Position numbers and translations under genes: made by a program
Origin: Candidatus Rifleibacteriota bacterium
GTDB taxonomy: Bacteria; Muiribacteriota; Ozemobacteria; Ozemobacterales; Ozemobacteraceae
Length of the DNA: 33,280 nucleotides
Reading direction: 5' to 3'
Assembly: GCA_012517355.1 (NCBI GenBank)
Contig: JAAYVD010000155.1
Span: 1-33,280 of the forward strand
The notes under the pieces: model-generated
Databases searched by the model: none
The model's input: only the letters and a program-made list of their open reading frames with translations
What the model was told of the DNA's origin: nothing
Shown here: positions 1,079-33,280 of the stretch, one piece after another
Layout of the letters: each line of letters starts with the position of its first letter
Position numbering within the stretch: position 1 is the stretch's first letter

Positions 1079-4000
1079 CTACTCCAGGTCGAGCGAGCGG
1101 CCGTCGGCGAAGACGCCGTTGGAGGTGCCGACCCAGATGCGCCGTTTGGTGCCTGCCGGCCCGGGCGACTGGCAGAAGGAATAGATGGTCAGGGTGCTGG
1201 CCAGGCCCGATTGGATGCGGGACCACGTCGCGCCCGCGTTCTTCGACCGATAGAGGCCGTTCTCGGCGCCGTAGAAGAAGTAGGTGACGTTGGTGGGGTC
1301 GATGAGCGTGGCGTAGGAGTTGGTGCTGGGAGCCAGCAGGGTGAAACTTCGTCCGGCATCGATGCTTCGGTAGACGCCCAACGACGAGGCGACCAACAGG
1401 GTGTTCGGGTTGCCCGGGTCGATGGAGATGTCGTAGATGATCCCCAGGTTGGTGGGACTCGTATTCACTGGCCGCGGAGGAAGCGGGGTGCGCAAGTAGG
1501 GGGCACGGCCGGGGCTGGAGGCCACACCCGAAGGACCATCGAAATACCAGAACCCGGTCACGCTGGAATCGTTCATGGCCAGGGGGTTCAGGATGTCCTT
1601 GATGTCCTGGATGTCGCTGAATTCGCCGGAATAGAACCCCGAATACATGCGGTTGGGATCGGACTTCGCCAAAGCCACCACCTGAGGCGAGTTGGTAAAC
1701 AGGGCTTTCCACTGGGAAGAATCACCGTAGGCGACGACATCGACATCGGCAGGGGGTGACCCCAACGCCCCCGTCCGGGTTTCCTTTTGATAATAGGCAA
1801 CATTCAACCACAGGGGCTCGGAGGCAACGATGGTATAGACACTCGGAGAGGCGGTAACCGTGTTGGCAAACCTGATTCTTTCCAGGCCGTAATCGCGGGC
1901 CAGATACAGGTAAGTGGGGTTGTTCGGATCCCAGGCCAACGACTTGGCAGAACTGGCGGAAAGATTGGCAACCTGAATCGGCGCGCCGAAGGTCCGGGGA
2001 TTGTGCCCTGCCCGCGGAATGATCCAGAGGCCATCTTCCGTGGCGGCAGCGATATCGTGGGTGGAGTTGTTGATGGCGATCTTGTTGACCTGGAACTTGC
2101 TACCCGCCGCCGGGACCGTGGTTCCCAGGGTGGTAGGTCTCCAGACCAGGTCGGAGGGTGTCGTTGCCAGCGTCGCATTCGCGGCGGCATACCAGACGCC
2201 GAACCCCTTCGTCCCCGCATACAGGTTGAAAACAGCAACTCCACTCGCCGTCTCATCGGCGAGATTCGGCCAGATGGGATCGACCAGCAGGGAACTGATG
2301 GGAAGAGGGGTGGAAGCGCCATCGACCAGGCCAACCGACCGGGCCACCCAGAATTCCTTGAGAGAGATGCTGACCGCGGCACTCTTGCTGGGATCGTAGT
2401 TCGAAACCGCGGTGATATCGAAGGAGCTGGGGGAAGGCATGGAAGCCGGAGCCGTGTACAAACCGCTCGAGTCGATGGTGCCGTAGGTCGAATTCCCGCC
2501 GGTGATGCCGTTCACCTTCCAGGTGACCGTGGTGTCGTTCATCGAATTGGTCACGCTGGCGATGAGCTTCAGCGAATCCACCTCCAGGAGAACCTCGGCG
2601 GAGGCCAGCTGGGGATCGGCATACGCATACCCCTTGGAGATCTTCACCTGGACCGGTTGGAGGAGGGTCACGGTGGCGATGGCGGTGGCCGAGGCGTCAT
2701 CGATCGCGGTGGCGATGATCTCGACAGCCGATCCGGAGGCGGGAATGCTGGTCGGTCGCGTGTAGACCCCACTGGAAGCGAGGGTTCCGATGTCCCGAAG
2801 ATTGCCATCGGCGGGAAACAGGAACCCTGGCGGTGACCCACCACTGCGGAAAGACCAGGTCACGCCGTTCTCGGAATTCCGCACGTTGGCCGAGAAGGGG
2901 ATCGGGATGATGACCGAAGGCGCCTGCGTGGCAATGGGGGTGAGGGTGACGGCCACCGCATCCTTCACCTGGATGGTACACGTGGCCGTGGGCGAGGCGG
3001 TCGGCGTGGGGGTGGCATTCGTCCAGGAAGCGACAACCTGGAGGGTGCCACCGGTATCGTAGGGATAGAAGGTAACCGTGTGGTTGTTGGGGGCAACTCC
3101 GGAATCGTCCGTTGTCAGCACCGAATTTGTTGCCACCGTCGATGAGAAGGACCCAGAGGCGGTCCCAGGGATGATGAACCAGGTGATGGAGGAGGGATAA
3201 CTGTCGGTGGTGGCGGTGATCGTGACCGGCGTCCGACGGGCCTGTCCGGTCGCGCTCGTGGGGCTGATGGTGACCACCGGGCCAAGGCTCAGGTAAGCGG
3301 TCAGCACCTGGGTTTTCGACGGGGCGGCGATGCAGCCCACGGTCATGGTGTCGGTCGCACCGGTGTAGGTGGGGGAAGGGGCGGTGTAGAGACATTCGAC
3401 AACGGTGGCCGTGGCCATGTAGGTGGGCGGTGTTGCGATGGTCAGGGTTCCCTGGGTGGGTGGGCTGATGATGGTCAACGTGGCACTCGAGGGAAGGTTG
3501 CGCAGGTAACAGGTGAAGGTCGCGACCTTGCCCACCATGACCGGGCTCTCGGTGTTCACCCATTCCCATTCGACCTGGGTCAGCAGGGAGACGGTGGCGG
3601 TGTCGGACGCGGTGGGATCACTTTCGACATAGGCGAGGATGGTGGCCGTGGCAGGGGCCAGCAGGCTCGCCGGAGCGGTATAGAGGCCGGTGTCGGCATC
3701 GATGTTCCCCGTTCCCGGCCCACTGGTCAACTGCCACTTGATGGGGGGAGCGATGTTTTCGGGGATGGCCGTGAAGGTCTGGCTCTGTCCGGAATACAGG
3801 ATCTTGGTCTTGGGCGTCACCCGGAGGCCGGGGCCCCTGAGGTAGAGGGGTTTCATCTGCACGTCAGACCAGTTGCCGGCCCCGTCACCGAACTTGTACC
3901 AGATGTTGTTCACCAGGCGCTGCAGGGGAGGCTTGTTGACCGCGATCGGCCCGACGGGGGGGATGAGGACGGCCCAGGTGCTGGGAGCGGAGGCGGTATC

Positions 4001-7000
4001 GGGAAGAATGGCGTAGGCCACCGAGGCTGTCCGGGGGTCGTCGATGGTGAAGTGCAGGTAGACGGGCAAAGACCCGACGGCTGCCTCCTCGACCACGGCC
4101 GAGGTGGGGGAGAAGGTGGCGCGGATGGCCATCGAGTTGTTGCTCGGCGGGGTGGTCCCGACAGTCACCGGCAGAGATTGGGTCGGGGTTTCAATGCCCT
4201 TCGAGGAGCGGAACTTGGCGTAGACCGTATAGGCCCCGGGCCCGGGCAGATAAAGCGTCTTGGTGGTGGCGTAGGGATCCCAGCCCACGGCGTCGAGATC
4301 GATGCCAACCTTCATGTCCATGCCGAGGCCGTCGGGGCTCTGGGCATACAGCTTCAGGTTGACGTAGGTGCGGTTGAGGGGCATGGTGTCGTTGGTCGAC
4401 AACGAGGCACTGGCGGGCCCGATGGTGGTGATGGAATCGGACACGGTGACGAGCCCAGACGGTGTCTCGAACCGCACATACACCGTCCGCAACCCTTCCG
4501 GCCCAAAGGTCTTGGTCGGTTCGGCAACGGTTGTGTAGACATTCCAGGAATGGGTGGTGGCATATGGATAGGCCGTGGCTCCGGTGAAATTGCCGTCGTT
4601 GCTGAACCACATGCGGTGGGTGGGCAGGGAATCGGGCGAGGAAAGGGTGAGGTCGACGGTGGGATCAAGCGTCGTGGCATCGCCGCTGTTGATGACGATG
4701 GTGGGCGAGGCCGGGGTCGGCCCGGCCACCTGGACATCGAGGCTGATCCAGTCGGAAACGACCCCGGCCACGCTCTTGAACCTGGCGTAGACTTTCTGCC
4801 ACCCGCTGGTGGGGTTCAACGAGAGGGAGGCGGTGGTGGCGAAGGGAACCCAGGTGGCGATGGACAGGTCGGTATAGGTGGCGGTCAGGGCCATGGAAGC
4901 CACGTTCGTTCCCGCGATCCAGAGATTGACCCCATAGGTGGCCAGAGGCTGGGTGTCGGAGGTGGTCAGCGACAGGCCGGTGGGACCGATGACCTGAATC
5001 GAATCCTGGCCATAGGAGAAGTTTCCTGAGGCATCTTCGAAGCGGGCATAGACGGTTTGCTGGCCGGGCGTCAGGAGCAGGTCGTAGCTGGCCAGCACCC
5101 AGGCATAGGTTGCCGGTGCATAGACGGTCTGGGTGGCGGTACCGAACAGGCCGTCCCGGGACAGTCGGTAGAATTTGGCCGTCGTGGAATGGAGCTTGAG
5201 GGTGGCCGACCCGGAATAGGTCTGGGCGTCTCCGTCATTCAGTTCCACCACGGTCAGCGAGGCAACCTGGATATCGACGTAGGCAACGTCGGATTCGACA
5301 TTCCCGGCGTTGATGAATTTGCCATACACGCGGTGGGTGCCGGGGGTCTGTCCCAGGATGAACGACCTGGTGGGCGCGAAGGCTTCGGAGGCGGTGGTCA
5401 AGAGGGCGGCCGGGTTTTCGCTCAAGCCCATGGAGGTGGCCCCGTTCGCGGTCAAGCTCAATGTCACCGTGTAGGTGGTCACCGGTTGGGAATCGGCACA
5501 GGTCATGGTGACGTTGGTGGGGCCGACGGTCTGGATGGAGTCGCTGACGGTGACATACTCATAGTTGGCGTTCCGAAGGCGGACATAGACGGTCTGGTTC
5601 CCGGGCACGGAACTGAGCTGGATGCCGGTGATCAGGAAAGATCCATCCGGCTGGACCCCACCGGCCGTGATGGTGTTCCAGGTGGCCCCCGTGAAATTGG
5701 GACTTCCGGTGGCCACCTGGTAGGCCAGGTTGTCGCCATAGAACAGGCTGGCATCGACGGAGGAATCGTTCGTGGTCGCGTCCCCATCGTTGATCAGAAG
5801 GGACGAAGAGGCGGGAGGAGGTTGCCCGACCTGCACGTCGAGGGTCAACATCGCCGTCTCGACCGCTCCGGCATTCCGATATTTGCCGTAGATCCGGTGC
5901 TGACCGATGAAGGGCCGGAGCGGATAGCTCGCCACCTGAAAGTCGAAGGGAACCCAGGAGGCAGGGGCGACCGGGTCGAGGTCGTCGTAGGTCTCGGAGA
6001 AGGCCATCGACACGGCCCCGGTGGAGAAGGGCCGAAGGTTCACGGAGTAGGTGGGAATGGGCTGGGAATCGTTGGTGGTCAGGGTCGAGTTCGTCGGTCC
6101 GACGAGGGTGATCGTGTCACTGATATCGACCCAGGCGGTACGTGCGGCGTTCAGCAAACGGACATAGACGGTCTGGAGCCCCGGGCTTGACCCAAGGGGA
6201 ATACTGGAGATCCGAAGCGATCCGTCGGGGTTGAAAGGCCCGACGGAAATGGAGGCGATCGGTTTCCCGGTGAAATCGGCCACGGCGGTCGCCACGAGGT
6301 ATTCCCGGTAATCGGCGAAATACAGGTTGGCCTGGCCGGTGGCCGAGGTGGTGGTCTCCGCCCCGCCGTTGACCATGAGGGTGGGTGACGCGGGCGGTCG
6401 CACTTCGACCTGCAGGTCGAGAGAAAGGATGTTGGTTTCGATCCGGCTGGCGTTGCGATACTTGGCATACACCCGGTGCTGCCCGTTGAAGGGCTGCAAG
6501 GTGAAGGTGGCCAGGTAGGTGAAGCTGGCCCAGTTCCCTGGGATGTCGTCGAGCTCGGCGTAGTCCTCCGTCAGAAGCATGTCCTGTACGCCATTGGCGA
6601 AAGGCCGGAGGAGCACGGAATAACTGGCCAACGGCTGGGTGTCGTTGGTGGTGAGGGCCGCGTTGGTGGGTCCCATGACGGAGATCGAGTCGCTGGCAAT
6701 CACGAACGTGCCGCTGGTCTTGCGGAACCTGACGTAGACGGTCTGGACTCCGACCGTAGGAGCCAGGGTCACGCTGGCGACCCAGATGCCCGTGGGGTTT
6801 TCCAGGGCGGCAATGGAGTATTCAGGAACCGTGGCGAAGGAGTCGGTGAGGGACACGGCGTAGAATTCGTAATCGGATGGATAGAGGCTGACCGACGCCA
6901 GATTGGAGGAGGTCACCGAATCGCCCAGGTTGACCAGGATGGTCGGGGTGCCGAGGGCGGTGGCCGAGGCGACCAGGACGTTGGCCGACAGCACGTCGGT

Positions 7001-10000
7001 CTCGATGCCGCCCAGGTTCCGGTATTTGGCATACACGGTGTGGACGCCCGGTGCGGAGGCCAGCTGGAACAGCGTGGAATAGGAGAAAGACGCCCAGGCG
7101 GGCGCCGCCAGTTTCCCATAATCCTCGGTCAGGAACATGTCGGCGGCATCCATGGCGAACGGCCGGAGGTTCACCTGGAAGGTCGTGAGGGGCTGGGTGT
7201 CGGCCACCACCAAGCTGGCGCTGGAGGGTCCGTTGACGCTGATGGTGTCGCTGGCAAACGAGAAAACCCCGTTGACGTCCTCGAAACGGGCCCAGACCGT
7301 TTGGATCCCGGCCCGCCGCAGGAGCGGGAACGCGGGGTGCAACACCGAGCCATCCGGTTGGTATCCGGTGGCTGGTGGGAACGGGTTGTCGGGAAGGGCA
7401 TTCTCGTAGGAGTTCTCCAGGGCCAGACGGTATTTTTTCGCCACGGGGGAGACCAGGTTGACGCTGACGGTGGCGCTGTCGGTGGTGGCATCCCCGTGGT
7501 TGATGACGATGGATGTGGGCAGGTCGGCGGTGACCGTCCGCAGCTCGATGGTCTTGTACCCGATGGGAGTCGTGTTGCCCAACTGGTCGGCAAAACGGTA
7601 CCACAGGAAGTAGGTGCCGGGACCGGTGATGAAGCGGGCGGCGACCAGGGCCTGCGGGGGGAACGGCGGAGCGACGTTATACAGCACGCCCGCCGTCGGG
7701 GGGGTGGGGTCGTTCACCAGGCCCAGGTAGTAACTGGCGGTGGCCGTGCGGGCATCCTTGATATCGAAGTGCAGGTAGACCGGGAGAACCGTAGTAGATG
7801 CCAGTTCCGTCGAGGTCGGGCTGTACGTTTCCCTGACGAAGACGGTGTTGCCGACGGGCGGGCTGGTGGCGACATCGACGGTCATCGTGATCGGCAGGGA
7901 CTCGATATAGTAGGCGTTGGAGGCGTTGCGGAACTTGGCAAACACCGTATGCCGGCCGCCTCCCGGGTTGAGGGCCACCACGTAGGTCGCCGTGTAGGTC
8001 CGCCAGTCGGTGGACGTCTCGAACACCGCCTGGCTGTCCTTGATCAGCATCTGGACGGCCCCGGCCGCGTAGACGTCGAGGTTGAGGTTGAGGGAAACCA
8101 GGGGCGACGCATCGGGAGTCGAGATGGTCGCGCTCGACGGCCCGATGGCGGTGATGGTGTCGTTCAGGATCAGATAGGCGCCCGAGGCATCCTGGAGGCG
8201 GGCGTAGACGGTCTTCGTGCCGGCCACGTGGTCGATCGTCCAGGGCTGGTTGACCGGGCTGGTCGTGAGCGGAATGCCGGCTCCCGTGCCGAAGTTGCCG
8301 TCGTTCGAGAACCAGGCGGTGCGGTATGCACCCGGGAAAACGGTCAGCACCACGCTGGTGGAGGAGGTCTGCGAGTCGCCCCCGTTGATGATGAGGGTCG
8401 GCGATGCCGGCGGCAGGGTGGTTGCCTGCACGTTGATCGACATCAGCTCCGTCTCGATCTGTCCGGCATTCCGGTATTTGGCGTAGATCGTGTGATACCC
8501 GGGAATCTGGGTCAGCTGGAACAGCTCGGAGGTCACGAAGGTGCGCCAGAGGGTGGGGTCGTTCACCTTGGTGATGTCTTCGGTGACCAGCATCTGGCTG
8601 GCCCCGATGGCGAAATACTTCAGGTTGACCGCATAGGTGGCGAGAGGCTGGGCGTCAGTAGTGCCGAAGGTATAGCTGCTCGGGCCGAGGACCTGGATGG
8701 TATCGCTGGCGAAGGAGAATTCTCCCGAGGCGTTTTCATACCGGACATTGATCATCTGCATGCCCGCCAGCGGGGTCAGGCGGTAGGGGACCCGCAGAAG
8801 GGGAACGGTGAAGTTCTGGTCGGGGACCCCGAAGAAATTCATGTTCTCGGCCAGCCGGTAGAACTTTGCATCGGGGGACCTCAGGTCCAGGGTCACGGTG
8901 GCCGTGGCGGTAGTCTGGTCGCCCTCGTTGATGACGATGGTGCCGCTGCCGGCGGGGGTTCCCTGCATGGTGATCTCGGCGCTGACGATTTCGGAGGTGT
9001 TGGTGGCGTCGTCGACGAACCTGGCATACACCGTCTGCAACCCATAGCCGCCCAGGACCCATTTCGGGATGGTTCTCGAAGAGGAATACATGGAATACGA
9101 GGCGGCCCCGGTGAAGGATTCGTCGTTGGAAACGAAGACGAAAGCCGCGCCGGTGGCCAGGGCGGTCAAGTCCACCCGAAGATCGGTGGTGGTGGTGGCC
9201 CCGTTGTTGATTTTCAGCACGACCCCCTCGGGGGGGGTGGCGTCCAGGATGATGCTGGCGGCGATCGGTCCGAACTCGTTTTCCAGTTCGTCGCGGAACC
9301 GGGCGTAGACGGTCTTCTTGCCGTCGCCTTCGTCAAGGGTCCAGGCGTAGGGCGTCGTGAAGGTCTCCCAGGTGTCACTGGCGGTGAACGCCGAATCATT
9401 GCGGATCTGCATGGTCGAGGCGCTGGTGCGGGCGGTGAGGTTGAGCACGACCGCCCGCTGGTTGGTCTTGGCGGCCCCGCCGTTGATCTTCATGATGACG
9501 TCGGGCCCGGTGGTGTCGAGGCCGATGGTCGCCGTGAAGATGGTGTCGGGATTGGCGCCACCGCCCTGGAACTGGGCATAGACGGTCTTGACCCCATCTC
9601 CCGTGGAAACCTTCCAGCGCCGGATCTCCGCGTAGGTCTCCCAGAAGGAGTTGAAGAAATCCTTCCGGTCGGATACCCGCATCTGCGTTGCCCCGGGATA
9701 CAGGAGGGTCAGGATCACCTCCAGCTTGTTGGTGAACGGCTTGCCGTTGTCGATCCAGACACCGAGATACCCTGCGGTCGTCGTGTTCAGGGTGATGGAA
9801 TCACTGATGACGGGGGACTCGTTGCCCGCCGAGTCGCGGAACTGGACGTAGATCCGCTTGGTGCCGTCACCCGCGGCCAGGGTGTAACTGCGCAGGGTGC
9901 CGACGGATTCCCAGACCTGGCCTGTCAGATCTTCCGAATCTCCCAGGCGCATCTCGACCGCGTTGGTGGAGGTCAACGACACCTTGACCGCCGTGTTGCG

Positions 10001-10726
10001 GGTCTCGAAGGCCCCCTGGTCGATGGCGATGCCCAGGTAGGTGGGGCCGATGGCGCTGGTGGTGCGGGCATCCACCCCGGAATAGCGGAACACCTGACCG
10101 TCCTCGCTGCGCAGGATGACGATGAACCCATAGCGGGAGGACGGGTTGAGGGGAGAAAGCGTGATCTCGTGGGTGGTGCCGTAGCTGGAGCTGACCGGCA
10201 CGGTCTGCTTGTCAGTATCGGTACGCCAGTATTCCAGGAGGGAAGTGCACCGCATGTTCGAGGTGAAGCTCAACCGCAGGCTGGTCGAGGCGATCTTGTC
10301 GAGCACCACGGTCTTGAGGCTGGCCAGGGACTTTTCGGGAAGCTGTTTCTGGCTGGAGGTGGTGATCTGGACACCGGACTCGAAGATGATCTCGCTGTCA
10401 CCCGTCAGGGCCACGAGATCGTAGAGCCCGGGCGGTAGGGTGGTGAACGCGAAGTACCCGCCGCTGTCGGTGCGGGTGGAGGCCACGATGGTGCCCGTGC
10501 CGTCGAAGCGGGCGGAGGCCGTGGTGCCGCCGGTCGAATCCCGGACGATCACGGGGATGCCGCCATACTGCGACCGGTCGGCGAAAAAGACCCGGCCGGA
10601 CAGGACCACGTTCGAGGGGGTTGTGGGGCCGGCGCCGCCATCGCCCCCGCCGCCTCCGCCGCCGCCCAGGCAGCCGAGGAAGACGATCAGGGCCACAACA
10701 ACGGCCAGGGCTCCCCACCAACGCAT
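1079..10726 (-). CDS. Giant modular surface lipoprotein: Ig/FN3-like repeats with C-terminal Asp-box propeller
   Basis: A 3215-residue lipoprotein. Residues 1-18 are a signal sequence with lipobox FLGC (lipidated Cys19), followed by a poly-Gly linker (20-33). About 38-125 resembles a carboxypeptidase-regulatory-like beta domain and about 130-220 an FN3-like domain. From about 220 to 2290 there are about 22 modules of 85-100 residues. Each has a short INxGDxxT-type opening, an LxxxAxxMxLSxD core and a closing VYAxFR/VYAKYRN strand. Many alternate between two types, one ending SDSI and one opening with NDTQPL and a YxVNL strand. Two copies of a third type (VYLHF, WYRF/WYKF) punctuate the array. 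Residues about 2300-2790 hold Ig-like domains, several with a GLYTAP-type motif. Residues about 2793-3215 look like a beta-propeller with two Asp-boxes (YRSIDAGRSF, YRSKNAGATW). The start has no Shine-Dalgarno but an extended -10 lies just upstream. It probably acts as a cell-surface adhesin or scaffold; the ligand is unknown. Confidence 0.9.
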   Translation of the reverse strand: MRWWGALAVVVALIVFLGCLGGGGGGGGDGGAGPTTPSNVVLSGRVFFADRSQYGGIPVIVRDSTGGTTASARFDGTGTIVASTRTDSGGYFAFTTLPPGLYDLVALTGDSEIIFESGVQITTSSQKQLPEKSLASLKTVVLDKIASTSLRLSFTSNMRCTSLLEYWRTDTDKQTVPVSSSYGTTHEITLSPLNPSSRYGFIVILRSEDGQVFRYSGVDARTTSAIGPTYLGIAIDQGAFETRNTAVKVSLTSTNAVEMRLGDSEDLTGQVWESVGTLRSYTLAAGDGTKRIYVQFRDSAGNESPVISDSITLNTTTAGYLGVWIDNGKPFTNKLEVILTLLYPGATQMRVSDRKDFFNSFWETYAEIRRWKVSTGDGVKTVYAQFQGGGANPDTIFTATIGLDTTGPDVIMKINGGAAKTNQRAVVLNLTARTSASTMQIRNDSAFTASDTWETFTTPYAWTLDEGDGKKTVYARFRDELENEFGPIAASIILDATPPEGVVLKINNGATTTTDLRVDLTALATGAAFVFVSNDESFTGAASYSMYSSSRTIPKWVLGGYGLQTVYARFVDDATNTSEIVSAEITMQGTPAGSGTIVINEGDQTTATATVTLDLRSPDAKFYRLAENMNFFGVPDQNFTVPLLRVPYRLTPLAGMQMINVRYENASGEFSFASDTIQVLGPSSYTFGTTDAQPLATYAVNLKYFAIGASQMLVTEDITKVNDPTLWRTFVTSELFQLTQIPGYHTIYAKYRNAGQIETELMSINVQATTLPPASPTLIINGGDSQTSSTSVVLTVFPGAYRTAWFSNDGNFGTGAGIPLTTSPVNQPWTIDHVAGTKTVYARLQDASGAYLILNDTITAIGPSSATISTPDASPLVSLNLNLDVYAAGAVQMLIKDSQAVFETSTDWRTYTATYVVALNPGGGRHTVFAKFRNASNAYYIESLPITMTVDVATSPPVGNTVFVRETYSPTSTELASTTVLPVYLHFDIKDARTATASYYLGLVNDPTPPTAGVLYNVAPPFPPQALVAARFITGPGTYFLWYRFADQLGNTTPIGYKTIELRTVTADLPTSIVINHGDATTDSATVSVNLVSPVAKKYRLALENSYENALPDNPFPPATGYQPDGSVLHPAFPLLRRAGIQTVWARFEDVNGVFSFASDTISVNGPSSASLVVADTQPLTTFQVNLRPFAMDAADMFLTEDYGKLAAPAWASFSYSTLFQLASAPGVHTVYAKYRNLGGIETDVLSANVLVASATALGTPTILVNLGDSVTSSNLASVSLYPSDYEFYAVSLTDSFATVPEYSIAALENPTGIWVASVTLAPTVGVQTVYVRFRKTSGTFVIASDSISVMGPTNAALTTNDTQPLASYSVLLRPFANGVQDMLLTEDYAELDDIPGNWASFTYLATFTLQPFNGQHRVYAKYRNASRIETNILSLDLQVEVRPPASPTLMVNGGAETTTSATGQANLYFADYREYLVATAVADFTGKPIASISVGPFNPDGSLRISSIPLGSSPGLQTVYVRLLNAARTAWVDISDTITLVGPTNSTLTTNDSQPIPTYSVNLRPFSTGAVSMAFSETYDDLDPVAPASWVPFDFQVASYPLRPFIGQHRIYGKYRNAGAVETAMLTLDVQVGQPPPASSSLLINDGDATTNDSSVDASLFYGDNLAYQVATGSPNFTGATWNTITAGGVQPDGSFLITGIQLSSVPGNQTVYVRLRNANYEYVTVSDSIQTVGPTNVTMTCADSQPVTTYTVTLSLTANGATSMGLSENPAALLTTASEAFAPTRSFILGQTPGTHRVYGKFINAGNVESDVAYVDIQVASLTVVELNDGDAQTYSGSATLKLHSTTAKFYRLSRDGLFGTATQTVYAPATYAWVLASYDLLLTPGQQTVYARFEDASGNFSYGQDSIQVIGPTGLSLTTSDTQPLATYGVNLWIAGTNVASMALTATYTDLSIATWVPFATTASLSLNPTSGWQKVYARFKSVAGVVSDWISLDVQVAGPTPASPTIVINSGDATTLDPTVDLTLSSPDSLPTHRMWFSNDGNFTGATAYPYATTHSWNVYTTVAEPTKTFGPEGLRTVYVRFETPSGLVTVSDSITTIGPASASLSTNDTMPLNRTYVNLKLYAQSPDGLGMDMKVGIDLDAVGWDPYATTKTLYLPGPGAYTVYAKFRSSKGIETPTQSLPVTVGTTPPSNNSMAIRATFSPTSAVVEEAAVGSLPVYLHFTIDDPRTASVAYAILPDTASAPSTWAVLIPPVGPIAVNKPPLQRLVNNIWYKFGDGAGNWSDVQMKPLYLRGPGLRVTPKTKILYSGQSQTFTAIPENIAPPIKWQLTSGPGTGNIDADTGLYTAPASLLAPATATILAYVESDPTASDTATVSLLTQVEWEWVNTESPVMVGKVATFTCYLRNLPSSATLTIISPPTQGTLTIATPPTYMATATVVECLYTAPSPTYTGATDTMTVGCIAAPSKTQVLTAYLSLGPVVTISPTSATGQARRTPVTITATTDSYPSSITWFIIPGTASGSFSSTVATNSVLTTDDSGVAPNNHTVTFYPYDTGGTLQVVASWTNATPTPTASPTATCTIQVKDAVAVTLTPIATQAPSVIIPIPFSANVRNSENGVTWSFRSGGSPPGFLFPADGNLRDIGTLASSGVYTRPTSIPASGSAVEIIATAIDDASATAIATVTLLQPVQVKISKGYAYADPQLASAEVLLEVDSLKLIASVTNSMNDTTVTWKVNGITGGNSTYGTIDSSGLYTAPASMPSPSSFDITAVSNYDPSKSAAVSISLKEFWVARSVGLVDGASTPLPISSLLVDPIWPNLADETASGVAVFNLYAGTKGFGVWYAAANATLATTPSDLVWRPTTLGTTVPAAGSKFQVNKIAINNSTHDIAAATEDGLWIIPRAGHNPRTFGAPIQVANLSASSAKSLAWDPNNPTYLYLARDYGLERIRFANTVTASPSVYTIVASEPLWLNVAYYQKETRTGALGSPPADVDVVAYGDSSQWKALFTNSPQVVALAKSDPNRMYSGFYSGEFSDIQDIKDILNPLAMNDSSVTGFWYFDGPSGVASSPGRAPYLRTPLPPRPVNTSPTNLGIIYDISIDPGNPNTLLVASSLGVYRSIDAGRSFTLLAPSTNSYATLIDPTNVTYFFYGAENGLYRSKNAGATWSRIQSGLASTLTIYSFCQSPGPAGTKRRIWVGTSNGVFADGRSLDLE

Positions 10727-12531: not shown

Positions 12532-13932
12532 TCACCCCTTGCCGGTTTCGGGGTCGCCCAGGCCGTACTTCTTCAATCGGTAGCGCAGGTTGTCACGGGT
12601 CATCGCCAGCAGCCGGGCTGCCTGGGTCTGGTTCCCCTGGCTCTGGGAGAGGGCCAGTTTGAGATATTGCTTCTCGACGGAATCCAGGAGGGTCTGCAGG
12701 TCCAGTCCCTCGTCGGGGAGGGTGGTGGCCGGAGCCGCGGCGGCCAGGGCCGCGACCGCGGCTGGTTCGGGGGCCAGCCCCAGGCTGGTTTCGCCGATCC
12801 TTTCGCCGGTTTCCAGGATCACCGCCCGCTCGACGCAGTTCTTCAGTTCGCGGATGTTCCCCGGCCAGTCGTATCCCAGCAATCGCCGCGAAGCGCCCTC
12901 GGTCAACCCCTGGAAGGTGCGGCGATATTTGTTCTGATACGAGTCGAGGAAATACCGCACCAGCAGGAGGATGTCCTCGCCCCGCTCCCGCAGGGGGGGC
13001 AGGGTGATCGGGACGACGTTCAGCCGGTAGAACAGGTCTTCCCGGAACTCGCCGCGCTGGACGGCCTGGCCGAGATCCTTGTTGGTGGCGGCGATGATGT
13101 TGAGGTCGACCTGGATGGGCCGGCGGCCGCCCACCCGCCAGATCTTCTGCTCCTCGAGCGCCTTGAGGAACTTGGTCTGGATGGTCAGGGGCATCTCCCC
13201 CACCTCGTCGAGGAACAGCGTGCCGCCGTCGGCGACCTCCATCAACCCTTTTTTGCGATCGATCGCACCGGTGAAAGAGCCCTTTTCGTGGCCGAACAAC
13301 TCCGACTCGAACAGGTTCTCGGGAATGGCCCCGCAGTTGATCTCGATGAACGGCGCGTTGGCGCGGGGTCCCAACCGGTGCAGCTCGTTGGCGACCAGCC
13401 CCTTGCCGGTGCCGCTCTCGCCGTTGATCATGACCACCCCCGCCCCGGCCCGGCCGATGCGGTCGATCGACTCGAGGACCGCCTGCATGCGAGGCGACTT
13501 CCCCACCACCCCGTAGCGGGGCCGCCGCTGGGCCCGCTCGGTCTGCAGCGAGTCGACCTCCTTGCGCAGGCGGACGGCTTGTTGGGCATTCTGCAGGGTC
13601 AGCCGGATCTTCTCGAGCGAGAAGGGCTTCAGGATGAAATCGAACGCCCCTCGCCGGATGGCGTTGACGGCCACCTCGACGTCGGCGAAGGCGGTCATCA
13701 TCACGACCTGGGTGTCCTCGTTGACCGCCTTGACCCGCTCCAACAGGTCGAGCCCGCCCATCCCGGGCAGCCGCACGTCGAACAGGGCCAGCTGGAACGG
13801 CCCGTTGTCGAGGTGGGGAAGGGCTTCCTCGGCGGACCCGCAGGCCGTGACCCGGTAGCCCGCCTTCTCGAGGTCCTTCTTCAGACCCCACAGGATCAGC
13901 TTCTCGTCATCCACCAGCAGTATGTTCGTCAT
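12532..13932 (-). CDS. NtrC-family sigma-54-dependent response regulator
   Basis: A 466-residue three-domain regulator. Residues 1-120 are a receiver with acidic pocket D8/D9, phosphoacceptor D52, T80 and K102. Residues about 140-380 are an AAA+ sigma-54 interaction domain with Walker A GESGTGKG (171-178), the sigma-54 contact loop GSFTGA (218-223, canonical GAFTGA), Walker B GGTLFLDE (236-243) and DWPGNIREL near 355-363. After an Ala-rich linker (391-402), residues 411-455 form a Fis-type HTH (QTQAARLLAMTRDNLRYRLK). AGGA lies seven bases before the ATG. It lies 44 bases downstream of the kinase gene, so they form a cognate pair. It activates RpoN promoters when phosphorylated; the nearest is 113 bases past its stop. 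The organisation recalls PilR, but PilR identity is not established. Confidence 0.93.
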   Translation of the reverse strand: MTNILLVDDEKLILWGLKKDLEKAGYRVTACGSAEEALPHLDNGPFQLALFDVRLPGMGGLDLLERVKAVNEDTQVVMMTAFADVEVAVNAIRRGAFDFILKPFSLEKIRLTLQNAQQAVRLRKEVDSLQTERAQRRPRYGVVGKSPRMQAVLESIDRIGRAGAGVVMINGESGTGKGLVANELHRLGPRANAPFIEINCGAIPENLFESELFGHEKGSFTGAIDRKKGLMEVADGGTLFLDEVGEMPLTIQTKFLKALEEQKIWRVGGRRPIQVDLNIIAATNKDLGQAVQRGEFREDLFYRLNVVPITLPPLRERGEDILLLVRYFLDSYQNKYRRTFQGLTEGASRRLLGYDWPGNIRELKNCVERAVILETGERIGETSLGLAPEPAAVAALAAAAPATTLPDEGLDLQTLLDSVEKQYLKLALSQSQGNQTQAARLLAMTRDNLRYRLKKYGLGDPETGKG

Positions 13933-23866: not shown

Positions 23867-25492
23867 CTACTGGCGGCGCCGGAGCGCCCGATCTTCCGCG
23901 TCCTGCTCGCGCTTGAACTGCGTGTCCGCCAGCTCCTTGCGACGATCCCAGAAGAGCTCCTCCAGCCGCACCCGGTTCTCCAGGGCATCCTTGACCTTGG
24001 ACATGCGCTCCTCTTCGGCGGCCATCTCGTCGCGCAGCGCCTCCTTCTGCAACTCCCTGGCCCGGTCCATCGACTTCTCGCGGATGGCCTCCTCCATGTC
24101 GGCGGCCTTCTTCGCCAGCTTCTCCCGCTCGTCAACGGTCTTCTTCTCCTCGGCGATCAGCTTCTGGAAGTACTTGTCGATGTCCTTCTGACCGGCCTCG
24201 ATGGCCTCCTGGGTCTTTTCCAGCCGCCCCACGTTGCCCTCGACGTCGGCCTCGGTGATGACCTCGCCCAGCTTCGCCGCGTCCTTGGCCTCGCGGGCGT
24301 TCTGCATGAACTGGAGGTAGCGTTTCTCGAAGTCGGCCACCTCCTTTTCGCTCTTCGCGACGATGTCTTCGCCGGTGAGGAAGTCGAGCATGGAGTTTTT
24401 TCTGGTGGATGTGAGAGCGCCCAGGCCTTCCAGCGTGGTGGCCGTCAGATCCAGGACCGTTGGAAGGCCTCGCTTCGCCGTATCCACGAACAGCTCCACT
24501 TGCTCGGATGCGCTGGTGAACACGTTGGAAACCGACTTTGCGAACCTGTCGAACTCGACGGTGTCGAGGACTTCCCCGATGGCGTCTTTGGTGGCCAGCA
24601 CCGTTTCCGTGAACGACTCCCAGGCCCCGGCGTCGGCGATGCGCTTCGCGGCGTCCTCTCCGAGATCCCCGATCTTGGTGAGCCCGACTTCGGCGGTCTT
24701 CGTGGCCCGCTCCATGGCGCCGGCGTATCGGTCTCCCAGCGCTTCTGTCAGCATGTCCAGGGCCTCGCGGCCGTCCATGGCGTCGGCTCCCATGGCCTTG
24801 ATCTGCTTCGCGGTGAGCCCGGTCTTTTCCTCCAACATCTCGAAGACCGGAATCCCTTCCTTCGCGATCGCGGTCAACGACTTGAAATCGACCAGGCCGG
24901 TGGTGTTCATCTTGGCCAGGGGATCGAGCAGCCTGTCGAACGACATTCCGGTTGCCTGTGCCGCATCGCCCAGGGCCTGCATCATCTTCCCACCGTCGGC
25001 GAGGGGATCAAACCCCTGCCTTTTGAGGGCGATCATGCGCTGGGTCACTTCTTCAACGTCCTGGGGGACCTTGCTCTCGAACTCCTGCGCCCATGCCAGG
25101 GCGCGGTCGCCCATGCCATCGGAACCCCACATGGCATCCATCTGGACCTGGAGCCGGTCGAACTTGGTGCCGACGTCGTAGACGGCTCCGGCCATGGTGG
25201 CCATTCCGTCGGCGACGGCAGACACCCCGGCCTCGAACAGGTTCAGCGGCTCCAGCGCGACCAGGAAGGGCTTCGCGTACCGGTCAACGGCCTCGGCGGC
25301 AATATCGCTCGGCCTCCATGCGTCCTGGAGCTTTTCGAACGCTTGTTTCAGCTCGGCCGATGCGTCCCTGGAGCGCCTGGCCTGGGAAACCGTTTCATCG
25401 GCGAACTGGGATACTTTCTTAGCGGCCGTGTCGAAAGCGTTGGAGACGAGGTCCCCGCCGATTGCGGAGAGTAGGATCTTGAGTTCAGCCAT
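23867..25492 (-). CDS. Phage tail tape-measure protein
   Basis: A 541-residue tape-measure protein, which sets tail length and chaperones DNA ejection in long-tailed phages. The N-terminal domain carries the family pattern: the helical start MAELKILLSAIGGDLV, FDRLQVQMDAMWGS, IALKRQGFDPLADGGKMMQALGDAAQATGMSFDRLLDPLAKM, then LTAIAKEGIPVFEMLEEKTGLTAKQIKAMG. Residues from about 370 to 541 are coiled coil, rich in Glu, Lys, Arg and Ala. There is no transmembrane peptidase-like region, and the protein is short for the family. GAAAGGG lies about nine bases before the ATG. The 79-base gap upstream of it has no clear promoter. The gene ends in TAG and the frame stays open past it. Confidence 0.85.
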   Translation of the reverse strand: MAELKILLSAIGGDLVSNAFDTAAKKVSQFADETVSQARRSRDASAELKQAFEKLQDAWRPSDIAAEAVDRYAKPFLVALEPLNLFEAGVSAVADGMATMAGAVYDVGTKFDRLQVQMDAMWGSDGMGDRALAWAQEFESKVPQDVEEVTQRMIALKRQGFDPLADGGKMMQALGDAAQATGMSFDRLLDPLAKMNTTGLVDFKSLTAIAKEGIPVFEMLEEKTGLTAKQIKAMGADAMDGREALDMLTEALGDRYAGAMERATKTAEVGLTKIGDLGEDAAKRIADAGAWESFTETVLATKDAIGEVLDTVEFDRFAKSVSNVFTSASEQVELFVDTAKRGLPTVLDLTATTLEGLGALTSTRKNSMLDFLTGEDIVAKSEKEVADFEKRYLQFMQNAREAKDAAKLGEVITEADVEGNVGRLEKTQEAIEAGQKDIDKYFQKLIAEEKKTVDEREKLAKKAADMEEAIREKSMDRARELQKEALRDEMAAEEERMSKVKDALENRVRLEELFWDRRKELADTQFKREQDAEDRALRRRQ

Positions 25493-29163: not shown

Positions 29164-29369
29164 TTGCGGGCCTCCTTGACGGTGGTGGATATGGAGGACA
29201 GGACACTGATGAGCGCATGGTCGTCGCCGGCGGTCTCGGCCGTGAGAGCCTGGTCGATCAGCGACGACAGCCTGCTCCAGGTCGGGGAGTCCCGGCCGGC
29301 CAGGTCGGCCGTGCGGCAGGCCTGGGAGATGATGGCCGGGATGTCGGCCATGCAGATGGTGGTGGTCAT
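29160..29369 (-). CDS. 69-residue element protein
   Basis: An unrecognised helical protein (MTTTICMADIPAIISQACRT start). AAGGAG nine bases before the ATG and an ATGA overlap with the primase stop support it. It ends by overlapping the next GTG, so it is coupled on both sides. Confidence 0.58.
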   Translation of the reverse strand: MTTTICMADIPAIISQACRTADLAGRDSPTWSRLSSLIDQALTAETAGDDHALISVLSSISTTVKEARK

Positions 29370-30520
29370 GCCTGGGCTCCTTCGTAGGACTGGCCGCTGG
29401 CAAGCACGCCGGCCAGCCGGTTGGCTTCACTGCGGGTGAGGCCGGCGTCGTGTTCCAGGATGGCCGCCCGCTCCTCGATGATCTCGGGGTCGGCGGTGGA
29501 GTCCGTGGATGCCTGGCTGGCAGGCTCGGACCCGGAGGCGTTGAGCCCCTCGGCCACCCATGACCGGATCGGAAGCCCGGCTTTCCACGCCTCGGCGGGG
29601 TCCTTGCCGTACGGGGTGGGCCAGCGGATCGCCGTGGGATAATTGGTCATCCAGAACCGATGGGCGTTTCTGGCCCCGGCCTCGTCAGAGTCGAGGGCCA
29701 CCAGGGCGGCCGGCCTGGCCGTGATGAAGGCATGGGCGGTCCGATTCGGGCGGGTCGTTGCCGATCGGAGCGAGACCGCCGCCACCAGGTCGCCGGCTTC
29801 CTGAGCGATCAGCAGCGCGTCAAGGTCGCTCTCCACGATCACGGCACCCAGTTCGCCCTTGCCGGCCACCAGGACAGACCCGGGATCGGACCCACGGACC
29901 AGCCGATACCCGCCCTTGGGGAGGCGGACCTGGATCCGGTCCAGGGCGAAGCCTCGGAAGGAGGGGATCACCAGGCCAGCCGGGAGCATGAGCTTGAGGG
30001 CCTTACCGTCGTCGCGGAGCTCCTCGGGGAGCCCCCACTCCTGCGGATCTCGCCAGGAGTCGGTGGCGGCCCACCCCAGCCGGAAACGCTTCACGGTCTC
30101 GACGGTGAGCCCGCGGGTGTCGGCGAGCCAGGCGAGGCGGGAGGGGTCGTCCAGCAGGCGGGCGTGGGCCTCCTGGACGAACGCTCGGCCGGCGTCCTGC
30201 CATCGCGCCGACGGTAGGCAGGGCAGGGCAGGAGTCCAGGCGCTGGGGTTGGCGCTGGCGGGCCGCATGGCCGCGGGGCGGGGCTCGATTCCCAGGGCGC
30301 GGCAGGCGGCCGGGTAGCTCATGGCGGGGTCGAGAAGCTGCGCCAGGGCGATGGCGTCTCCGGCCTGGTCGCAACCGCGGCAGAACCAGCGGCCCCGGGC
30401 TGGCCAGATGCGGAACCGATCACTCCCGCCGCAGCGGGGGCATGGGGCAGACCACTCTCTGGCGCCGTGCCGGGCGGGGGTGATCCCGGCCTTGCGGAGC
30501 AAGGCGACAAGGTCAGGCAT
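29366..30520 (-). CDS. DNA primase (CHC2 zinc finger plus Toprim)
   Basis: A 384-residue primase that would make RNA primers for the element. The N-terminal zinc ribbon has C27, C30, C47 and C50 (CPRCGGSDRFRIW, then WFCRGCDQAGDAI). A linker helical region leads to a Toprim domain with the Glu motif VIVESDLDAL and the DxD motif ALDSDEAG. The C-terminal tail is helical. GGGAGGA precedes the ATG at 30518-30520. A longer open frame upstream would run into the helicase end and has no support. The stop of the helicase gene overlaps it by eight bases, so the two are coupled. It lacks a helicase domain, so it should work with the adjacent AAA ATPase. Confidence 0.88.
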   Translation of the reverse strand: MPDLVALLRKAGITPARHGAREWSAPCPRCGGSDRFRIWPARGRWFCRGCDQAGDAIALAQLLDPAMSYPAACRALGIEPRPAAMRPASANPSAWTPALPCLPSARWQDAGRAFVQEAHARLLDDPSRLAWLADTRGLTVETVKRFRLGWAATDSWRDPQEWGLPEELRDDGKALKLMLPAGLVIPSFRGFALDRIQVRLPKGGYRLVRGSDPGSVLVAGKGELGAVIVESDLDALLIAQEAGDLVAAVSLRSATTRPNRTAHAFITARPAALVALDSDEAGARNAHRFWMTNYPTAIRWPTPYGKDPAEAWKAGLPIRSWVAEGLNASGSEPASQASTDSTADPEIIEERAAILEHDAGLTRSEANRLAGVLASGQSYEGAQA

Positions 30521-32171
30521 CTGGGTCCTCCCGGGTGACGTCGCCGGACCCCAAACCCCGTAGGGGGAGGGTGCCAAGGGCGATGGCACTTCCCCCCGTA
30601 GGGGGCCTTGGATTCCTTGGATTGCTTTTTCCCCGCAAACCCGCATCACCACAAGCGCAATCCAAGGGCAGGGCGCCCAGCGGGGAGGCCGTTTTTCCTT
30701 GGATTTCGCCCGAACCCCCGCGATTAGCTTCCGGTGAGTATTTCACCTCGGGATGCTCTGCCGCCCCTTGGGCGCCCTTGGCGCCCTTGGCCTTCTGATC
30801 GGCCTGCCCTTGGAATCCTTGGATGGACACGGCACCAACACAGGGGTTTCGGAGGGTGGCGGTTTGCTTCCCGTTGATGGCAAATTCTTCCGATCTGACG
30901 AGTTTCCCCCCATCGACCGCCGCGGCCACGATGAGCGGGAGTTCCACGGCCAGGGAGATCCTCGGGAACGCTTCCCGCAGGGCCTGGCGGATCGCCCTGG
31001 TCCCCTTGGTGCTGCCCTTCCGCAGCTCGTTCTCTGTGACCAGCCCCTCCTCGCCGATGAGGTCCGCCAGCATGTCAGCCTGGCGACGGCGGATTCCCGT
31101 ATCGAGCTCGACCGGCTCCAGGATCCCGTGTTTGCCACGGCGGAAGTACATGTCGCTCCCGGCCCTGGCGGCGTGGTTCATCTTGGGGGTCTGGAGACAG
31201 ACGTAGGCATACCGGTCGGCCTGGTCGATCCCGAATTGCCGGAGGTCGGCATCCCTGAGGTCGGACAGGCTCATCACGAACCGGCAGCCGTCCCCGATGG
31301 CAGATGCCCCGCGGCCGGTTAGGTCGGCCCCGTCCTTCCCGGCACCCTTGCTGACGTGGTGGGCGAACAAGATGGTCAAGGAGTGCTTCTTCGCCATGGC
31401 CTCCAGGGCGGCCACCCAGGCGGTCGCGTCGGTGTTGCTGTTCTCGTCGAGCCCGTAGAACCGGCTCATCGGATCGACGAGGAGTAGGTCAACGGGCCTT
31501 CCGGCTGCCGTCATGGCTCCCAGGCTGTCGGACAGCCAGGCAAAGGTGGGGGTTGCGGCGGGGTTCCCTGCGGGGTCTCGGCCGATCAGGACACGGTCTT
31601 CCCCCACCAGGGAGACGGCTGCGAAGTTCGCCCTCAAGACCGGCTCAATACCAGTGCCTGCGAGCCCAGGGCCGGCCAGGCGCATGCCGAGGGCTGCCGC
31701 CCTGATCCGACGATGCAGAACGTCGGTCGGGTCTTCCCCGGCCAGCAGCAGAACGCGGCGAGGCTTTCCAGGGATGAACGGTCCGAAGGCCTCACCGGTC
31801 GCGGCGGCGGCTGCCACCTGGATGAGGAGGAATGATTTCCCGCTCCCCCCCTTGGCCACCAGCGCACCAACAACCCCAGCGGGGATCAGGTCCCGGAAGA
31901 GCCAGTCAACAGGGCCTGGGTCGGTGTCCAGGAACCGGCCGACCGACTCCCACGCCATGAGCGGCCTTGCTGGCGCAGCCTCTGGCGCGTGCTCCTGACG
32001 CTCCGCGTCTACCCTGTCGCGGATCTTTGCAAGGTCACCGGGCGGAAGTCCTGGCACAGAACGGTGTTGCGCCAGGCTCTCGCCCGTGGTATGCTTTCCC
32101 TTGGCTGTTTCTTCGCGTTGGGTCGCCGGTGGCAGGCGGCCCTTCTCGCTTTTCTGGGGGTCTTCGGTCAT
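30513..32171 (-). CDS. RepA-like AAA ATPase / replicative helicase
   Basis: A 552-residue protein of the RepA/AAA_25 group (RSF1010 RepA-like hexameric helicases). Walker A is AKGGSGKS (about 106-113), Walker B LLLVDPMS, and a later sensor-like stretch is ILFAHHVSKGAG. The first 70 residues are a charged, low-complexity lead. After about residue 440 the protein becomes repetitive (QGFQG, KGAKGAQG). The coding sequence of that tail holds the CCTTGG repeats described separately. I chose the second Met (32169-32171), which has GGAG nine bases upstream; the first Met, at 32178-32180, is overrun by that site. It would unwind DNA at the element's origin, together with the primase that overlaps it. 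Confidence 0.85.
   Translation of the reverse strand: MTEDPQKSEKGRLPPATQREETAKGKHTTGESLAQHRSVPGLPPGDLAKIRDRVDAERQEHAPEAAPARPLMAWESVGRFLDTDPGPVDWLFRDLIPAGVVGALVAKGGSGKSFLLIQVAAAAATGEAFGPFIPGKPRRVLLLAGEDPTDVLHRRIRAAALGMRLAGPGLAGTGIEPVLRANFAAVSLVGEDRVLIGRDPAGNPAATPTFAWLSDSLGAMTAAGRPVDLLLVDPMSRFYGLDENSNTDATAWVAALEAMAKKHSLTILFAHHVSKGAGKDGADLTGRGASAIGDGCRFVMSLSDLRDADLRQFGIDQADRYAYVCLQTPKMNHAARAGSDMYFRRGKHGILEPVELDTGIRRRQADMLADLIGEEGLVTENELRKGSTKGTRAIRQALREAFPRISLAVELPLIVAAAVDGGKLVRSEEFAINGKQTATLRNPCVGAVSIQGFQGQADQKAKGAKGAQGAAEHPEVKYSPEANRGGSGEIQGKTASPLGALPLDCACGDAGLRGKSNPRNPRPPTGGSAIALGTLPLRGLGSGDVTREDPDA
30574..30825. repeat. CCTTGG-type repeat cluster in the helicase gene: candidate replication origin
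   Basis: Ten copies of CCTTGG or its complement CCAAGG lie within about 250 bases (30574, 30606, 30615, 30662, 30697, 30766, 30776, 30785, 30808, 30817). Six extend to a CCTTGGA(A/T)(T/G) unit, including a near-copied double unit at 30606-30623 and 30808-30825. An 11-bp inverted repeat (30615-30625 with 30657-30667) flanks a segment with a T-run. Repeats inside a replication gene recall the origin of lambda in gene O. Confidence 0.45.
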
Positions 32172-32222
32172 GCGCTGCATCTCCAGTCCCGGGCGTGCCG
32201 TTGGCCAGCGGCGCGCCGCTTT

Positions 32223-32585
32223 TCACTTCGCTCCGGGATGCCACGGACAGATCGCCACCTTGTCGAGCGCCGCCCGCGGGTAGCGCCATCGCCTACCGAC
32301 CAGGAGAGCCTTGACGCGGCCCTCAGAGCGCCAGGCGCACAAGGTTTTCGGAGAGACGTTCAAATAGGCGGCCCCCTGGGCGAGGGTCATCAGCCCATCG
32401 GGTGCGGGAGAGGTCCGGCGCTGGTGCCGCAGTTCCCTGACGACGCTGTCCTCGATGGCCTTAGCCAAGATCGGCCCCAAGGCCGGGGCGATTGCCTCGG
32501 CCAGGGCCTGGAGGTCGAGGTCGGCGACGGAGGGTATCCGGCGGGGTTTCGTGCTGCTCTGGGATTCGGCGTCGGCGGCGGTCAT
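32223..32585 (-). CDS. Helix-turn-helix (excisionase-type, HTH_17) protein
   Basis: A 120-residue protein. Residues 1-60 are a helical, charged lead. Residues 66-111 (LMTLAQGAAYLNVSPKTLCAWRSEGRVKALLVGRRWRYPRAALDKV) are a winged/MerR-like HTH of the excisionase type. The ATG overlaps the TGA of the preceding gene (ATGA). In such elements this kind of protein acts as excisionase or as operon regulator. No DNA site can be named. Confidence 0.75.
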   Translation of the reverse strand: MTAADAESQSSTKPRRIPSVADLDLQALAEAIAPALGPILAKAIEDSVVRELRHQRRTSPAPDGLMTLAQGAAYLNVSPKTLCAWRSEGRVKALLVGRRWRYPRAALDKVAICPWHPGAK

Positions 32586-33073: not shown

Positions 33074-33212
33074 CGCCGCACCTCCTGACCGTCGTCGGCC
33101 TTGGGCCTGTGGATGCGGCTTTCGATGAACGCGGCCAGGTCTTCACCGCCGGTGGTTCCATTTCGTGATCACCGGTCTGGTCCCCGAAAGCGAAGGCCCC
33201 CCGAATTAGCAC
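33074..33212 (-). pseudogene. Possible frameshifted small gene
   Basis: A GTG at 33210-33212, overlapping the previous TAA, opens a frame reading MLIRGAFAFGDQTGDHEM. A different frame nearby reads GTTGGEDLAAFIESRIHRPK and ends in TGA overlapping the start at 33073. Joined by a shift near 33160 they would make one small gene; as read, neither alone is convincing. Confidence 0.22.
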
Positions 33213-33280
33213 CTTCCCTCGAAGGATTGGTCCGGCATGCGTCCTTTCCCATCCTGAGTTTGCCCTTTCCGCCGGTCATC
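33206..33280 (-). CDS. Partial 3' end of a gene entering from the right edge
   Basis: An open frame runs from the window edge to TAA at 33206-33208. The product end (DDRRKGQTQDGKGRMPDQSF, then EGRC) is charged and not recognisable. It may be part of the same operon. Confidence 0.3.
   Translation of the reverse strand, partial: DDRRKGQTQDGKGRMPDQSFEGRC

Follow-up and report, generated by a model that had tools for sequence, protein, structure and literature searches.

Putative iteron origin within the 3' end of a RepA-like prophage helicase gene, with the winged helix of that helicase as its probable reader

The window analysed here, a 33,280-nucleotide stretch of DNA from a Candidatus Rifleibacteriota bacterium, carries a helicase gene, the primase gene that follows it and, upstream of the helicase, a gene for an HTH_17 excisionase-like protein (Table 1). 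The helicase matches Pfam AAA_25 (E 7e-39), which places it among the RSF1010-RepA-like helicases, and among solved structures its nearest relative is that of RSF1010 RepA (1g8y; E 1.4e-47 when alignment A7 was the query), in line with the top Foldseek matches (1nlf/1olo/1g8y). An AlphaFold2 model built on an alignment of 22 relatives predicts a core of the RecA type, followed by a winged helix (residues 359-445) and by disorder from residue 450 onward. Because the window encodes both the excisionase-like protein and a tape-measure protein, its helicase end is taken to be a prophage, or what remains of one, truncated where the contig stops, while the left part is probably host chromosome, judging from an NtrC-type sigma-54 response regulator. 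A 3215-codon open frame also lies in the window, and a 1199-aa part of it has no Pfam match. The last 130 bp recur elsewhere (C182:29164-29294, C118, C116 (100%), C152 (89%) and, partly, C162), and since four copies lie at or near contig ends, this segment looks like the terminus of a mobile element at which the assembly broke. It is this mobile repeat that interrupts a third copy of the helicase, on C182, after about residue 373.

Table 1. Positions of the features discussed in the text (numbering of the window; "forward" and "inverted" refer to the sense of the helicase gene).
Feature	Position	Strand	Remarks
Helicase gene	30513..32180	-	555 residues; RSF1010-RepA-like RecA-fold ATPase, Pfam AAA_25
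Winged helix-turn-helix (predicted)	30846..31106	-	codons 359-445; pLDDT about 80-93; proposed iteron reader
Disordered tail (predicted)	30516..30839	-	codons 448-555; pLDDT 33-44; translated iteron region
Primase gene	29366..30520	-	zinc ribbon, DnaG-like; ATG overlaps helicase stop
HTH_17 excisionase-like protein	32223..32585	-	upstream of helicase; rival candidate reader
Putative iteron cluster	30574..30822		ten CCAAGG units, 8 forward and 2 inverted
Dense sub-cluster	30766..30822	-	five forward iterons; spacing 9-23 bp
Second sub-cluster	30574..30702		forward 30697, inverted 30662, doublet 30606/30615, inverted 30574; pattern matches C61
CCTTGG, + strand	30606, 30615, 30697, 30766, 30776, 30785, 30808, 30817	+	
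CCTTGG/CCAAGG, - strand	30574, 30662	-	
Inverted repeat	30615-30625 / 30657-30667		perfect, 11 nt; short T-run adjoining
Spacer GATGCGGGTTTGCGGG	30632..30647	-	16 nt; identical in C61, absent elsewhere in the genome
Small hairpin	30593..30605		sense CCCCC-TAC-GGGGG; between doublet and last inverted iteron
Tape-measure protein	23867-25492		
NtrC-type sigma-54 response regulator	12532-13932		
3215-codon open frame	1079-10726	-	
Recurrent window end	33150-33280		130 bp

The initial annotation had described ten CCTTGG/CCAAGG sites, six of them with an extended unit, together with near-copied doublets and an inverted repeat beside a T-run, all in the low-complexity tail of the helicase, and our count bore out each of these observations: all ten sites fall within helicase codons 448-555, six copies extend to CCTTGGA (CTTGGA x6), the doublets CCTTGGATTCCTTGGAT and CCTTGGAATCCTTGGAT differ by one base, and the inverted repeat is a perfect pair. 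No canonical 6-mer of the window other than CCAAGG attains 10 copies within 252 bp (the runner-up reaches 7), and when the 38 CCAAGG sites of the window were placed uniformly, none of 20,000 trials put 10 of them into 252 bp (p 5e-5). The total of 38 against a shuffle mean of 25.9 is a mild excess over the whole window, and the CCAAGG signal is one of clustering.

An AT-rich unwinding element was sought in the array of the window and none was found (array 35% AT; best 40 nt 50% AT, with 42% of other windows equally AT-rich), and the GC skew of the window has no switch at the repeat cluster, which makes the skew check proposed in the initial annotation uninformative. Across the relatives described below, AT enrichment is weak, with 15 of 42 arrays in the top 10% of their own locus and a median AT excess of 0.06.

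The ten sites span codon phases 0, 1, and 2, and two of them are inverted relative to the other eight. A second copy of the helicase, on contig C61 of the same genome, is identical to that of the window at 249/283 positions in the core, 52/89 in the winged helix, and 38/108 in the tail, and the C61 tail carries [AG]CGGGA sites in place of CCAAGG. Seven of the ten window sites have a C61 counterpart that lies no more than 4 columns away and points the same way, which none of 300 circular shifts equalled; together with a shared 16-nt spacer (Table 1), this coincidence indicates that the positions were kept and the repeated word was changed. The paralogous module (L007, G000:C61:55574-60202) is preceded by a tyrosine integrase and an AlpA-like regulator, a setting as in an integrative element or satellite.

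In another genome of the same family, the stretch separating helicase from primase gene carries AACTGAAG repeats at one locus and TGTCGGAA repeats at another, and more distant relatives, several with a fused primase-helicase, carry arrays of other words directly after the helicase stop. These arrays bear on the reading that selection acted for a glycine-rich, low-complexity protein tail and produced the DNA repeats as a by-product. A spacing of 9 bp does yield G-x-x peptides in places in both paralogs, but a peptide repeat accords poorly with three codon phases and inverted copies, with a predicted disordered tail so little conserved between the paralogs, and with relatives whose arrays stand outside the coding frame; we find this reading hardly credible, and a repeat at the peptide level was rejected on the codon phases and inverted copies. 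The initial annotation had itself proposed that conservation as protein sequence only would refute an origin, and such conservation is contradicted by the three phases, the two orientations, the different motif of the paralog, and the intergenic arrays of relatives. Since the repeats are not conserved as protein only, the helicase tail would be a by-product of read-through, as the annotation had suggested and as the predicted disorder of the tail also favours.

The position of the arrays was surveyed in loci gathered by protein similarity alone, using as score how far 300-bp windows close to the helicase stop exceeded all other windows of the locus in pairs of matching 8-mers. The first set comprised 58 loci less five duplicates (L045, L047, L049, L050, and L083); loci without a complete helicase ORF match (e.g., L010, L036, and the primase-fetched L021-L028, L030, and L031) were not in this test. 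In 40 of the 53 non-redundant loci the helicase end was more repetitive than any other part of the locus as fetched, where chance predicts about 3.9, and in 47 it was in the top 5%; with the four loci that had given the idea left out, it was best in 36/49. A second set, collected later and scored in an identical way, was drawn from 80 of 246 loci, with 14 on already-used contigs omitted, and gave 65 new loci (64 with a complete helicase, 54 non-redundant, 51 with enough flank). Here the helicase end was the maximum in 32/51 (4.1 expected) and in the top 5% in 43/51. It was not the most repetitive spot in 13/53 and 19/51 loci, respectively, and L042, close kin of array-bearing loci, has no array. 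Short-repeat arrays were also seen away from the helicase end (L038:2807-2861, L041:628-733, L088:1481-1732, and L085:2669-2990). A single-protein helicase query against genome contigs and viral contigs retrieved no relatives, and alignment queries worked better.

Among eight named phages, the helicase end bears an array in three (CGphi29, 1N2-2, and PB15), and none was found there in the other five (P26218, Vibrio 1.123.O, ctfPj964, BUCT618, and Yersinia vB_YenM_12). In P26218, TGCTACAA repeats lie one small gene downstream of the helicase; in Vibrio 1.123.O, repeats lie upstream of it; and in ctfPj964, they lie within a pentapeptide-repeat gene.

Many of the related arrays hold a hairpin with a pyrimidine 5' arm, a purine 3' arm, and a short loop of the TAAA/TAC type, often placed between one forward and one inverted iteron (e.g., L044, L034, L032, L087, L040, L051, and L058, among others), and a small hairpin is also present in the window (Table 1). 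With a search pattern composed after viewing the array sequences, and therefore post hoc, TAAA/TAC-loop hairpins occurred at 2.17/kb in arrays versus 0.57/kb and in 30/43 loci. The fold of the window's hairpin and array was not significant against shuffles (z -0.71); of five stretches tested in all, three gave z of -3.8 to -4.6, one -2.1, and that of the window -0.7. A search of eight loci at the Rfam gathering threshold returned two tRNAs and no family for the array or the hairpin. That the hairpin serves as a primase or single-strand start (priming) site is only a guess.

The cluster might instead be an operator, a terminator, or a copy-control element of the helicase-primase operon and not a place where replication starts. 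Its location between two probably co-transcribed genes, its inverted copies, and its hairpins are all compatible with such a role, and copy-control iterons exist in other replicons. However, relatives carry up to 8-12 copies, no T-run follows the hairpins in the arrays that were read, and arrays also stand behind genes for a fused primase-helicase and stop before unrelated genes downstream, so that we regard a purely regulatory element as quite improbable. As a cluster of short direct repeats at a presumptive initiator gene, the locus has the form of an iteron-type origin. The initial annotation had taken it for the origin of the element, and the codon phases, the orientations, the C61 positions, and the intergenic arrays of relatives all point the same way, although replication itself is here inferred. 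We judge it likely, on these comparisons, that the cluster is the iteron part of a prophage origin, at which the C-terminal winged helix of the helicase would probably bind and replication would start. What speaks against this is the absence of an AT-rich element and of a significant fold in the window, the five of eight named phages with no array at the helicase end, and the loci in which another spot is more repetitive.

The case for the winged helix as reader comes from the covariation of repeats and protein. For the first partial Mantel test, loci with a score <9 or a rank fraction >0.04 were excluded (42 left) and L005 was removed by hand (41 loci). With the core controlled for, iteron similarity correlated with similarity of the helicase C-terminal domain (partial r 0.45, p 0.0005); with the C-terminal domain controlled for, it showed no positive correlation with the core (-0.25). 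Partial Mantel tests leave phylogeny in, so that shared ancestry can inflate the correlations. The second set (31 loci) gave 0.34 (p 0.0005) and 0.01 (p 0.46), respectively. Because the C-terminal domain adjoins the iterons, linked recombination could yield part of the correlation. In both sets, repeat similarity follows the C-terminal winged-helix domain and not the ATPase core. Contigs L073 and L074 share 93% and 95% identity on the two sides of a break that falls where the winged-helix region ends; the iterons read CTTCCAACCCC in the former and CTTCATCCCCC in the latter. Phages 1N2-2 and PB15 differ by a single base in almost all iterons: GGTAC is matched by GGTTC in the same column at 10 of 11 sites, no site stays unchanged, and the spacers are identical at 91/153 positions. 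RSF1010 RepA stops where the winged helix would start, and an IncQ2 repA, which also lacks it, has no array at the gene end.

An iteron origin might instead have another reader, such as the primase, the HTH_17 protein, or an initiator encoded elsewhere, with the helicase recruited indirectly. In the window the HTH_17 gene is directly upstream of the helicase; an AlpA-like HTH protein is encoded in C61, and two small proteins that look HTH-like are encoded at this place in G021:C179; and in IncQ plasmids it is a separate protein, RepC, that binds the iterons. Against this, the HTH matches are excisionase/AlpA-like, and in both data sets iteron similarity goes with the C-terminal domain of the helicase; a separate reader therefore seems unlikely to us. 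A RepC (PF06504) search of the genome gave no match, nor did its controls.

We favour an origin at the 3' end of the RepA-like helicase gene, inside the coding frame in this element, whose most likely reader is the winged helix of the encoded helicase. The helicase would be a hexameric ring ATPase of the RSF1010-RepA type, by homology, whose C-terminal winged helix would bind the CCAAGG iterons in the last part of the gene that encodes it; this binding would bring the ring to the origin, where it could be loaded, and the primase encoded next would then prime. The low-complexity tail would simply result from the reading frame crossing the origin. Beyond this element, we lean towards the view that phage AAA_25 helicases with a C-terminal winged helix are widespread, unrecognised self-targeting initiators with the origin at their own 3' end, and that domain and array change jointly, at times by a concerted base switch across almost all iterons, as between 1N2-2 and PB15. 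No paper on iterons at the gene ends of AAA_25/RepA-like phage helicases turned up among the openings of open-access abstracts. With so many winged helices and iterons paired in nature, it would become possible to test directly how origin specificity evolves, and perhaps whether there is a recognition code.

Among known systems, RSF1010 and the IncQ plasmids supply the closest solved relative of the helicase, RepA, which differs in having no winged helix, the iterons there being bound by RepC. In lambda, the origin repeats lie inside the gene of their binding protein O, a replisome organiser. The initial annotation had drawn its analogy from lambda, which is right in kind; membership in a lambda-like class was rejected as too loose, because an O-type initiator has no helicase domain and the gene here encodes an AAA_25 helicase. 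Lactococcal phages TP901-1 and Tuc2009 likewise have origin repeats inside the gene of their binder, according to passages of PMC8965321, and these binders, too, are replisome organisers and not helicases, whereas here the gene encodes the helicase itself. The origin of pRN1-type plasmids resembles our locus in lying directly downstream of a replication gene for a winged-helix protein and in having a structure of non-conserved sequence, according to passages of PMC4234260; it differs in consisting of one 100-nt stem-loop, with an SF3 helicase, in place of many short iterons. A closer match than lambda, with iterons next to the helicase gene, is the rep-ori of the staphylococcal islands: SaPI Rep helicases recognise iterons directly downstream of their own gene through the C-terminal domain (as stated in passages of PMC7581432), and PICI origins lie 3' of rep (in the sections drawn on from PMC6092414). 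The C-terminal domain of an initiator helicase (here the proposed reader), iterons at the 3' end of the gene, and a primase alongside are common to both, as far as these sections go. The helicase here belongs to another superfamily (RecA-fold AAA_25) and is not a SaPI-type Rep, the iterons of the window are inside the coding frame (in relatives they are downstream of the gene), and its two sub-clusters have no AT-rich region between them. The best reading, by analogy, is that the element of the window may work like a SaPI rep-ori while standing outside that family. It would extend to an unrelated helicase a rep-ori plan that the sections cited from PMC6092414 describe as shared by PICIs and present in "no other known bacterial replicon."
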